A stretch of 64,000 bases of DNA, from assembly GCA_903915955.1 (NCBI GenBank), contig CAIWUU010000174.1, positions 1 through 64,000 of the forward strand. Direction: 5' to 3'. Each line of letters starts with the position of its first letter. Position 1 is the first letter of the stretch. The DNA is from an uncultured Chlorobiaceae bacterium. GTDB lineage: Bacteria > Bacteroidota > Chlorobiia > Chlorobiales > Chlorobiaceae. A program made the translations under genes and the position numbers. Below are positions 3,800-25,175 of the stretch, piece after piece. A model generated the notes under the pieces. It had not been told where the DNA came from. It worked only from the letters and a program-made list of their open reading frames with translations, and ran no database searches.

Positions 3800-6700
3800 T
3801 TATCTCTTCTTGTCGGATGAAGGGATGATGCGTTTCCAGAACTCTTCCCACGAGTGGAATCGTTCTTTGTATGAGAGGCTGATGCCCAAGGTTTCTGCAG
3901 GTTTCTGAAGATTGGAGCTGTAAGTGGTAATTCCGTTTTGCCCAAAAGAGCGTGATGCTTCAAAGTAGACTTTCGGAGTAATCCGGTATTCAATTTTTTG
4001 AGCGGTACCATAGTAATCGGATAAGGCAGCTCCACCCAGGTCGGTAGAGCTGCCGGTGCCGATAAATCGGACCTTACCCTTGGTCCCCGGCACGCTGAGT
4101 GCAAAATAAAGATCAAGCCCACTCAGCGTGCCGCTATTATTGACACCTACATTGACGTTAAAGCTTTCAAGTCCGCCGATATCCTGAATAACTCTGGATA
4201 TTCTGGAAGAGAGAATACCTGTACCAGCAGAAAATCCTGCGCTTGATACTGCAATATTGGTGAGCTGGCCGCTGGTTCCAGGTCGGGCATACCACTGTTT
4301 TGCAAGGAGCATGGAGATAACGTTCAGCTCCGCATTGGGGTCAATCTGGCTTGCATATTTCCCGATCATATTCACTGATGCGTAAGGCTGGGTCTGTTCA
4401 TTAAGGTAATAACCCATGGTAACCTGAGGGTTATTAAGGGAGCCTGTGATGGCAAGGAGCATATTTACCTGATCCCGGTCGCCGTTCTGCTGGTTTGAAG
4501 CATTCACGTACTTGCTTCCGTAAAGGTTATCCATGATGCCACTACGAATGTCAACATTGTTCCAGGTGATTGTTCCTCCATCCTGCAAGTCAAAGTTGGA
4601 GTTGGAAAATTTATATTTCCCATCAATAATATTGACCGATCCAAAAAGGCGATATTGCTGATTGTTCTTGTTAACTATCAGAGAGAGATTGTTGATTGAA
4701 GTTTCAAGTTGTTCTCCTCTGTTGCTATCAAAAATCATGGTATACTTGAGCGGTTCAACACTGCTCAGCTTCAATTCTTGAATCTGCAGAATATCGATAA
4801 GTGAGTGATAAAACTCCGCAGGTTTTGCCTGCGTTATATTGTTCCCGGAATTTTGAGCAGTCACAACCTTATTGTAACGGGGCATAATTTCAATAAACTT
4901 GTCGGCGCCGACATATTTTGCACTCTCGTTTGCTCCCGATCGGTAAAGAGAAAAATCTGCAGCATCAATTCTCATCTCTCCCTCAACAACAGGTGCTGAG
5001 AGTTTGCCGTGAACACGAATGTTGTTTGTTGTCCCGGTAATACTTCCAAACGAGGTTTCATCCTGGTTGTCTTTTTTATTAAATAACAGCAATTTTTCAG
5101 TCTTTGCTGTAAGGGATAGCGCACTGGGTTTCAGTTTTTCAAGCATCACAACTCCATTGATGACACCACTGCCCTGCACGTTATCGCTGATGGTTATCTC
5201 CCGCAGTTCGATACCATTTGGTGTGACAAGGGCGTCTCCGTTGAGCAGGTAAGATACTTGAGTCGGTTCAATTTTAATTTTTGTATTACGCAGACGACTG
5301 GTCATGGAGATGTCTGGTTTTGACATTCTCCCCTGGATTTGAAGTGTTGTCGGTATAATGCCTTCAACGGAGGTAACTATCGGAAACAGAAGCTCAATAA
5401 ACTTGGCAGAAAGGTTATCAGAACGGAACGATGCGTTTATGGGTAGTTGTTCCGTTACATTGAGTTGCAGGGGAAAGTAGCTGATAACAACCGGAATTGT
5501 TCCTTCTCCATCGATAGTACTGATTGCTGTTACGCTTTTTTCTGAACTTGTTTCCGATAGTGGGCCACTGCTGTGTATGTCAAAACGAAGTTGATTACCG
5601 TTGTGAATTCCGCTTCCTTTTACTTCTCCAATAGTCAACTTGTCATAACGGATCTTCTCTCCGGTGATGTTGAACGAGCTCTTTTTTGAGCCTGGCTCGC
5701 CACTGACCATCAAAGAGGCATTGATGCGTCCTGAAATTTTTTCGAGAGAGGGATTTGGAGCAAACCGATTCAGCTCGTTGATATCAAAATTGTTCAAGGT
5801 GCACAAAAAATTGCCGGGGAGGGAATTGCTGAGTTCTCCGTCAAATATCGCCTGTTGTAATCCCTTTGTTATCGTGAAATTGTTAAACTTTGCCGATGTT
5901 TTTCCCACCATAACATTCGAGTTATCTGCTGTCAGCCATATTCCGGAAGCGTCTTTCAACGAGAGGTGTTTAAAGAGGATCTCATAGTTGTTATTATTTT
6001 TTGTTGCGGTAAATTTTACAGACAAGCTCTGGGCTGGATCGGGTATTGCAAGGTCAACAGCAGCTTCAAGATGAGCTGTAGAATAGATGCCTGAAAAAAG
6101 AGCATTACCAATGTTTTTGCCTGCAACAGTAATTGATTCAACCTTGCCTGATACCGATGCTTGTGGTATTCCAAGGCTGTTGCAATCCAATCCGAGCTCC
6201 ATGGAGAGTTTTTTTAGAAAAAAATCATTATGGGCGTGCAAGCTTGAAAGGTCAATAAGAGTGTTTATCGAACATTGTCCGTTTTTGTATGCAACCCTTC
6301 CTTCTGCCCTGCCTTGAAGAGCGAATTTTTGTACAGGCCACAGAAGTACCAAAGGTGAAATATCTTTGACGTTGATTCGGTAATTGATGGTGATTGGTCT
6401 TTTGAGTGTATTTTCCGACGTGAGCGGAGCCGCAACTGTTGTGGGCCAGATATTTTGTGCGCTTATTTCTCGCATAACACCTGAACTGGCAAATTGGCCC
6501 GCATGGATCAGCTCTTCAAACGAGTAATCTCCCTCAGCAATAACATCAATAAAATCGCTGCTTATTTTTGCAAGTGAAGATGTTGCATTCTGTACAATTT
6601 CGAGCGAGGCTTTGGATTGCTCCGTCAGCTCAAACCCGTTGATCAAAGAGGGTGAAAACTGTATGGAGGCAGCAATATTGAGCATTTTTGGATTAAAACC

Positions 6701-22356: not shown

Positions 22357-22908
22357 TTACTTGATATTCAACTTGTCCAGAACTTTGAAGGTAAGGTCAT
22401 TTTCCGTAGTTACATAGATAGAGCTATTCTTTTCAAGCACCAAAGTAACTTCTTCTTGTATTGCAATCGACTCAACGGCAGCCAAAACCTTCTTCCGAAT
22501 TGGCAGGAAGAGTTCCTGCTGTTTCGTTTCGATAGTCCCGCTTCGCCCAAAATGCTCCTGCTGATATTTTTCAAGAGTCTGAGCTTTCAGTTTCAACTCC
22601 TTCTCTTTCTGGTCTCGCACTGTTCTTGTCAAAGATGCCGCTTTTTGTTGGTAAGCTGCGACTGATTGCTGATAATCGACGTTCATGCGATTCAGCTCTT
22701 TTTGCAGAGGAGCCGCTATTGCCTGCAAGCTCTCTTCTGCTTGTTTTGTTTCGGGCAACTGTTGCAGGATTTTTCCTGAATCCACGACACTGACTTTTGT
22801 TCCAGCTTGTGTTATCGCAAATGTTTGTGGTGGAACCAGTACCAAGCTCAATGCCGCAGTCATGAAGATACGGCGAGACATGTTTATAAATTCTTTTGAA
22901 AGAATCAT
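22357..22908 (-). CDS. OmpH/Skp family periplasmic chaperone
   Basis: Signal peptide, VSVVDSGKILQQLPETKQAEESLQAIAAPLQKEL..., coiled-coil, EEVTLVLEKNSSIYVTTENDLTFKVLDKLN. Confidence 0.88.
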   Translation of the reverse strand: MILSKEFINMSRRIFMTAALSLVLVPPQTFAITQAGTKVSVVDSGKILQQLPETKQAEESLQAIAAPLQKELNRMNVDYQQSVAAYQQKAASLTRTVRDQKEKELKLKAQTLEKYQQEHFGRSGTIETKQQELFLPIRKKVLAAVESIAIQEEVTLVLEKNSSIYVTTENDLTFKVLDKLNIK

Positions 22909-23062
22909 TAATGTTATCGTTTAGGTTAGCGTGATTAATGCTTCAATACCTGTCCAATATGTAATTTATCCATATATAATGTCAAAGGTAATAATTCCTT
23001 GACAAAAAACTACACAAAGCTGAATAACCTGTTCTTTTGAGTGAAGAGGAGGTTGATAACGT

Positions 23063-23191
23063 TTTTTTCTGGAAAAATTGCCATGTTTGTTTTACAATTG
23101 TGGTTTTAAGTTCGAGTTTTAACAGACAGATAAGACGAGAAGGGATATCCATCGCAGAAGCAAAAGATATTAACCGATTTGTATAATATGG
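23063..23191 (-). pseudogene. Relic of dprA 3' end (C-terminal winged-helix tail)
   Basis: Within ORF 22982..23248(-): LISFASAMDIPSRLICLLKLELKTTIVKQTWQFFQKK aligns ungapped with DprA C-terminus LATASNIDIPALLVHLFELELKEAILQQPGQFFQK; DNA also shares tttctggaaaaa and gttcgag blocks at identical spacing. Confidence 0.7.
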
Positions 23192-23282
23192 TTTACTGGC
23201 ATTTTCTTTTTTTTGAAAGAATTTATCACTATAGTAATTAAAGTACAATCTATTGTACTACTAAATAATATTGAGCTTATTA

Positions 23283-24002
23283 ATGGGTTATTACAACAAA
23301 GTCAAAAGGAGTCTCAGGCAGCTTGCTGGCCAAGAGGTGATTGCTCGGGTTGAGTTTACATGTGCATGTCGTAATATCCATGACTGGCGAATTTGTCCTG
23401 TCGGTATTGACAGTAATAGCGTCGTGTTTTCCTTGGGTGTGGGAGATGATATTGGTTTTGATAAAGGGATGATTACAACATACAATTGCAATGTTCAAGC
23501 GTTTGATCCGACACCACGATGGATTGAGTGGATCAAATCCCAGAATCTTCCTCAGCAATTTTGGTTTTATCCGTATGCAATTGGAGGAACGGATGGCACC
23601 ATGAAACTTTTTCCTCGTATGCCGAATGGAAAGCCTTTCTCAACGATGCTTACGGTGATGAACGAAGGAGTTAATGATGCCGTTGAAGGTATAACTGTCA
23701 ATGTTAAAAGACTTTCAACTCTTATGACAGAGCTTTGTGTCTCTCACATTGATATTCTTAAAATGGATATTGAGGCGGCGGAATATCAAGTCATTGATGA
23801 TTTCCTTGCGGCTGATCTGCCAGTTTATCAGCTTTTGGTAGAGTTTCATCACCGATTTACATCGGTTCCAGTGCAGAAAACCAGAGATGCCCTTGATAAA
23901 TTGTATAAAGCTGGATACAGGATTTTCTATATCACTGAAAAAGCCAGGGAGTACTCGTTTATTCATGTTGATACCTATAAAAAGTATTTGCAACAAATCT
24001 GA
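23283..24002 (+). CDS. FkbM family methyltransferase
   Basis: VFSLGVGDDIGFDKGMI..., NVQAFDPTPRWIEW, HIDILKMDIEAAEYQVIDDFL (FkbM-type motif). Confidence 0.85.
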   Translation: MGYYNKVKRSLRQLAGQEVIARVEFTCACRNIHDWRICPVGIDSNSVVFSLGVGDDIGFDKGMITTYNCNVQAFDPTPRWIEWIKSQNLPQQFWFYPYAIGGTDGTMKLFPRMPNGKPFSTMLTVMNEGVNDAVEGITVNVKRLSTLMTELCVSHIDILKMDIEAAEYQVIDDFLAADLPVYQLLVEFHHRFTSVPVQKTRDALDKLYKAGYRIFYITEKAREYSFIHVDTYKKYLQQI

Positions 24003-24023
24003 ATGAGAGTATCCTGTTGTTGA

Positions 24024-25175
24024 TTAGGGCATTATTTTCTGGAAAAACTGTCCTGGTTGTTGCAAGATTGCCTCTTTTAGTTCGAGCTCAAACAGATGTA
24101 CAAGAAGAGCGGGAATATCAATGTTTGAAGCGGTGGCAAGTGCATCTATATGAATGGGCGCTGTGCCCATACAATGGATGATGCTTTTTTCGGGAGGAGT
24201 AAGATTGTCGTCGGTGCTGTTTTTCTGTAATGGAGAGATCCCTGAACAGTTTTTTGCAAATTGTCCTTCAAGTTCGCTGATGATGTCGTCAACGCTCATG
24301 ATCGCCTTTGCTTGACCTTGCTGGATGAGCTTGTTCGTGCCTTTCGATGTTCTTGAAAAGATACTGCCTGGAATAGCAAAAACCTCCCTGTTTTGCTCAA
24401 GCGCAGATGCTGCCGTAATCAGCGATCCCCCTTTCAGATCTGACTCAATGACGATGGTACCTGAAGAGATGCCTGAAATAATGCGGTTTCTCTTAGGAAA
24501 TTTTCCAGGGGAGAGTTCAGAACCAATCCACTCTTCTGAAATAATAGCGCCCTGTTCAACGATTTTTGGCCACACTTTTCCCTTCGGATCGGTATAGATG
24601 GTGTCAATGCCACTTGCAAGAACGGCAACAGTAATACCTCCGTTCTCAAGTGTTGCCGTGTGTGCGGCCATATCAATGCCATAAGCCAGGCCGCTGAAGA
24701 TTATAATGCCGCAATTGACCAGATCCTTGCATACCAGAGCCGTAGCTTGTTTGCCATATTGAGAGGCATACCTCGTTCCTACCACGGCAAGGCCATAAGA
24801 CTCTGCGTCAGGAAGTTTTCCCCGTACAAAGAGGCAGGGTGGGGGATCATAGATTTCTTTCAACAGTGGAGGATAATCATGATCAAGGATGGTAATGATA
24901 TTTGCATTGTAGCGGGGAAGTGCCGCAAACTGCTCTTCGGCAGCTCGTCTGGCTACTTCTCTCGTTGGTGCATGGTGAAGAAAATGGTGAATTTGTCGGG
25001 CAAGAGATTCACCAATTCCCGATACCTGCACAAGCTCATTGATATCAGCATGCAAAACATCGGTCAGGTCAGGAAAATAGCCAGCCATTGCCTTGATTCT
25101 TGCTGGGCCAATACCCGGAACAAGCGTCAGGAGAAGGAGAAGAAGCCTCTGTTCCATGGTATCTGGAGGTTTCAT
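24024..25175 (-). CDS. dprA: DNA-processing protein DprA
   Basis: VVGTRYASQYGKQAT, FSGLAYGIDMAAHTATLENGGITVAVLASGIDTIYT, SPGKFPKRNRIISGIS motifs. Confidence 0.96.
   Translation of the reverse strand: MKPPDTMEQRLLLLLLTLVPGIGPARIKAMAGYFPDLTDVLHADINELVQVSGIGESLARQIHHFLHHAPTREVARRAAEEQFAALPRYNANIITILDHDYPPLLKEIYDPPPCLFVRGKLPDAESYGLAVVGTRYASQYGKQATALVCKDLVNCGIIIFSGLAYGIDMAAHTATLENGGITVAVLASGIDTIYTDPKGKVWPKIVEQGAIISEEWIGSELSPGKFPKRNRIISGISSGTIVIESDLKGGSLITAASALEQNREVFAIPGSIFSRTSKGTNKLIQQGQAKAIMSVDDIISELEGQFAKNCSGISPLQKNSTDDNLTPPEKSIIHCMGTAPIHIDALATASNIDIPALLVHLFELELKEAILQQPGQFFQKIMP

Follow-up and report, generated by a model that had tools for sequence, protein, structure and literature searches.

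The 64,000-nt window, a stretch of a 2.5-Mb Chlorobiaceae genome (G000), carries the scar of a gene gain beside the competence gene dprA: an fkbM-family methyltransferase gene lies between the intact 3′ end of dprA and a second, decaying copy of that end, which is the end that dprA had before fkbM arrived. The locus is a clear case of a gene-transfer or recombination scar of a type already known, rather than a new system, and its added result is the repeated use of the dprA–ompH junction by surface-glycan genes. Because the relic records a formerly empty locus, the gain is polarised and relatively dated. The locus further draws attention to a short stretch adjoining a competence gene that two or more unrelated families of surface-glycan genes have used; gene exchange in these bacteria has received little study.

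A second dprA end lies beyond fkbM

The features of the locus, in window coordinates, are as follows.

22357–22908, minus strand: ompH, which is conserved downstream of dprA in Chlorobiaceae (Pfam OmpH, E 1.2e-26; synteny)
22909–23061, minus strand: native dprA–ompH intergenic region with a conserved TTCAGCTTTGTGTAGTTTTTT...GGAATTATTACCTTTGA block before ompH, colinear with loci L040, L041, L043–L045, L072 and L087
23062–23161, minus strand: old dprA 3′ end, left as a decaying relic of about 33 codons, 5′-truncated (70% identity to 24032–24131; shuffles; common to L039)
23158–23170, no strand: inferred junction of the insert 5′ flank with the old dprA end, where L042-like sequence ends and dprA-like sequence begins (base approximate)
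23170–23282, no strand: insert DNA 5′ of fkbM, with homology to the L042 fkbM 5′ flank up to about AAATCGGTTA (alignment of the window, L039 and L042 flanks)
23283–24002, plus strand: fkbM-family methyltransferase gene, 239 aa, intact, convergent with dprA (Pfam Methyltransf_21, E 8.1e-10)
24003–24023, no strand: 21-nt spacer between the convergent dprA and fkbM stop codons (from the sequence; similar short spacers in L039, L042 and L081)
24024–25175, minus strand: dprA, intact, 383 aa, with a winged-helix C-terminal domain (ORF; Pfam DNA_processg_A, E 2.5e-73; DprA_WH, E 9.6e-12)
24032–24131, minus strand: present dprA 3′ end, the functional copy of the duplicated stretch (repeat D1; agreement with the species tree in a 255-nt 3′-region tree)

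A repeat search returned one family, the 100-nt direct repeat D1, in which 23062–23161 matches 24032–24131 at 70% identity, ungapped, with an offset of 970. An earlier note on this DNA had reported such a second dprA end beyond fkbM, with equal spacing of shared tttctggaaaaa and gttcgag blocks, and the ungapped repeat bears out both points. Local alignment of the two DNA copies scored 282, against a shuffle maximum of 233 (n = 2000), and alignment of the relic peptide (ISFASAMDIP...QFFQK) to DprA residues 346–380 scored 85, against a shuffle maximum of 48 (n = 5000). The relic lies on the minus strand, in the same orientation as the present dprA end. Its limits need correction: the predicted peptide is there, but instead of starting at 23191 it begins (LISFA...) at about 23173, and clear dprA homology begins at about 23161–23165. 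The dprA and fkbM genes were rightly described as intact. The fkbM product scores 39.5 bits against Pfam PF05050 (FkbM methyltransferase; curated cut-off 22.7), and fkbM is the sole gene between the two dprA ends.

The stretch at 23062–23161 is the old dprA 3′ end, since it continues unbroken into the ompH promoter region and is colinear with the empty L040 and L041 loci. In L039 the relic has lost its reading frame through a frameshift and a short tandem duplication, and thus the relic is decaying. It probably has no function. The same frameshift, with the lack of any Pfam match to the relic above cut-off, rules out that it is a piece of an unrelated conserved gene, a possibility that the earlier note had raised. 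Chance similarity is ruled out by the shuffles and by the copy common to L039, and assembly error by the same arrangement in L039, a sister species with an independent assembly. A search of the rest of genome G000 found no second copy of the relic.

Within the insert flank, the minus strand at 23196–23225 encodes DKFFQKKENA in the frame of the relic, resembling a DprA ending, and L042 has SFQKK at this place. This may be a dprA end displaced earlier, or a chance resemblance in A-rich DNA.

The dprA–ompH junction is empty in most Chlorobiaceae

We compared 78 distinct Chlorobiaceae dprA loci. In 66 of them dprA is followed directly by ompH, with a gap of 103–415 nt (median 176). Four carry fkbM between the two genes (the window, L039, L042 and L081). 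Another five carry at this position, convergent with dprA, a gene of glycosyltransferase family 9 (GT9, heptosyltransferase); these are L154 (G022), L143 (G062), L144 (G067), L148 (G066) and L153 (G004), from Chlorobium genomes in two clades. The junction has thus received surface-glycan genes more than once. No ompH was seen in the remaining three, two of which stop at a contig end; the third, from G017 (L152), has an rpsT-like gene, ruvA, a folC-like gene and a rho-like gene there in place of ompH, and synteny breaks precisely where dprA ends.

Just two of the 78 loci, the window and L039, show a further dprA tail downstream of the first (z 9.7 and 10.7; next best 2.7). The same scan found none beside the fkbM genes of L042 and L081 or beside the GT9 genes, and no relative with a duplicated tail that lacks fkbM. 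A candidate relic in the L042 and L081 flanks was rejected, as the matches were not significant against those loci's own tails and were borderline only for some other pairings.

In the window and L039, the stretch from the relic through the intergenic DNA to ompH aligns end to end with the empty L040 and L041 loci, at a similar distance to ompH. The alignment with relatives that the earlier note had proposed therefore gives a clear answer, in that empty loci match the relic, the intergenic DNA and the ompH promoter region throughout. Its central claim, that fkbM-bearing DNA entered at the dprA 3′ end and left the old tail beside ompH, is supported by the 66 empty relatives and by the colinearity of the relic with L040 and L041. 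Since the relic shows that the locus was once empty, fkbM at this junction is a gain and not a retention.

A probable one-step origin by one-sided integration

We infer that the scar was probably made by one-sided homologous integration during natural transformation, with DNA from a related Chlorobium that bore dprA and fkbM. The window species and L039 would descend from an ancestor with an empty dprA–ompH junction that took up related-Chlorobium DNA already bearing fkbM just downstream of dprA. At one end, homologous recombination would have taken place within dprA; at the other, in the fkbM 5′ flank, an illegitimate join would have linked the DNA to the resident dprA about 100 nt short of that gene's end. 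The product would be a dprA with the donor's end, a convergent fkbM, and then the resident's 5′-truncated dprA end joined to the ompH promoter region, with fkbM retained afterwards by selection. This reading accounts for the scar in one step, with dprA as the anchor and an illegitimate join in the fkbM flank.

Several observations bear on the two ends. The similarity of the insert 5′ flank to that of L042 breaks off abruptly where dprA sequence starts; microhomology here does not exceed about 4 nt (TGCY possible), with L042 serving as a distant proxy for the donor. On the other side, dprA is continuous and intact, with no visible breakpoint inside. Genome G000 contains comEC as well as dprA, and green sulfur bacteria (Chlorobaculum) have been naturally transformed in the laboratory (PMC3613366). 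In transformable bacteria, one-sided integration typically yields inserts of about 1 kb with 3–10 bp of microhomology on the illegitimate side, at frequencies 10^2 to 10^6 times lower than ordinary recombination (PMC3240628).

Among the closest known counterparts is homology-facilitated illegitimate recombination, of which cases in Streptococcus pneumoniae, Acinetobacter baylyi and Pseudomonas stutzeri have been summarised (PMC3240628). There, as here, about 1 kb of foreign DNA lies beside a homologous anchor with a non-homologous join on its other side. In contrast to those cases, which come from experiment, the present one is known as an old scar, and its join lies within the end of the anchor gene itself, leaving a duplicated 3′ end. 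The displaced effector 3′ ends and orphan immunity genes of the Vibrio cholerae T6SS, and orphan Rhs tips (PMC5361080), are similar in that DNA anchored in a conserved 5′ part brings in a new end and pushes the old one downstream. In those systems, however, toxin and immunity modules change, whereas in the present locus the anchor is a housekeeping competence gene that keeps an end of the same kind, and the cargo is a separate convergent gene.

A different route to the same architecture is a circle carrying a dprA 3′ fragment and fkbM that integrated by a single (Campbell-type) crossover, or an element targeting the dprA 3′ end whose recombinase was lost or acted in trans. Either would give exactly what is seen, namely an intact gene with a new end, an insert, and a 5′-truncated old end in the same orientation. 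There is also a precedent in prophage e14, which gives icd a new 3′ end and leaves the old one on the far side as a 163-bp icd′ duplicate, or pseudogene (PMC6379469); the same-orientation duplicate of a gene 3′ end on the far side is found here too, at about 100 nt. However, e14 is a prophage with an integrase, whereas the insert here encodes fkbM alone, a single non-mobility gene, with no integrase. Nor is the dprA tail repeated beside the genes of the other carriers (L042, L081 and the GT9 loci). Finally, a search of phage records returned no relatives of fkbM, and the only matches in viral contigs spanned 39 residues; these results also led us to reject a phage origin of the gene. We therefore regard such a circle or element as rather unlikely.

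No conflict between the present dprA end and the species tree

If the incoming DNA carried its own dprA end, the present end would be the donor's. In a 3′-region tree, the last 255 nt of dprA agree with the species tree, which would mean that the donor was close or that the end was copied locally. This is a counterpoint to integration from outside: with the present end in line with the species tree, a close donor and a local duplication would look alike. The earlier note had proposed either an old event or a replacement end from another lineage; half of this is answered, in that the event predates the L039 split and the present end shows no sign of a distant lineage. A visibly foreign 3′ end on the present dprA was rejected because sliding identity and trees show no conflict, and the odd tail proved to be that of L041. 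In L041 (about 5850–6152), the last ~300 nt of dprA are 75–78% identical to those of its sister L040, against ~90% for the rest of the gene.

In the comparison of DprA tails, which the earlier note had suggested, the relic is nearest to L041, with 72–74% identity over the ~100 nt compared, versus 67–68% to the tails now found in its own lineage. This grouping has support of 89/91, although with only ~100 nt the alternatives were not rejected (p-AU 0.43 and 0.13).

A local tandem duplication of the dprA end, with fkbM inserted later between the copies, would account for a present end that is not visibly foreign. It requires two independent events at one spot, however, and the intermediate, a duplicated tail in a locus that lacks fkbM, occurs in no relative. 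The higher identity of the relic with L041 than with the tails that its lineage now carries also speaks against it, with the caveat that the AU test is not significant. We consider this order of events improbable.

Trees of ompH from the window and L040–L087 conflict with those of dprA and lptC; L048, L058 and L072, for example, fall outside in ompH and inside, with strong support, in lptC. Thus, ompH may recombine between divergent alleles.

History of fkbM

In a carrier tree built from GGPP synthase and DprA without its end, the fkbM carriers occupy three separate places, and the starred branches force at least three changes. In the fkbM tree itself, the window, L039 and L042 are joined (98/98) and L081 is more distant. 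The insertion predates the split of the window from L039. Between the window and L042, the synonymous difference of fkbM (pS = 0.42) is lower than that of the other neighbouring genes (0.50–0.68), which suggests transfer, although as the lowest of 12 values it is not decisive. GC content, which the earlier note had proposed to compare with the flanks, is indeed lower in fkbM (40.7%) than in dprA (46.8%) or the GGPP synthase gene (47.4%) of the window, and fkbM lies about 5.5–7.5 points under dprA in all four carriers. With dN/dS of 0.18 against L039 and 0.17 against L042, fkbM is under purifying selection.

More improbable still is an ancestral fkbM. In this history, empty-type DNA (dprA end, promoter and ompH) would have recombined back at its ompH end and brought in the relic through an illegitimate join to the fkbM flank. 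The fkbM protein distances do roughly follow dprA distances, and the best ompH tree separates the window and L039 from L040 and L041 at a gene that may recombine here. Yet fkbM would have to have been lost many times to leave 66 loci empty, the ompH conflict does not reach significance (p-AU 0.14), and the pS of fkbM against L042 is low if descent was vertical.

A possible exchange site for surface-glycan genes

The fkbM product is predicted to O-methylate, probably, a surface glycan. Function and target are suggested by its membership of the FkbM Pfam family, by a related fkbM in G090 that sits among genes read as glycosyltransferases (ORF reading), and by the heptosyltransferase-family gene at the same junction elsewhere. 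In the literature searched, we found no report of FkbM in Chlorobium. More tentatively, the dprA–ompH junction of Chlorobium could be a place where surface-glycan genes (fkbM and GT9) are preferentially exchanged by natural transformation, with the conserved dprA and ompH as recombination arms, and the relic would then be the trace of one imperfect exchange; we see this as possible rather than probable.

In L149 (G080), dprA and ompH are separated by a long gap of 415 nt (410–825) with no convincing gene, which may be what is left of an insert since lost.
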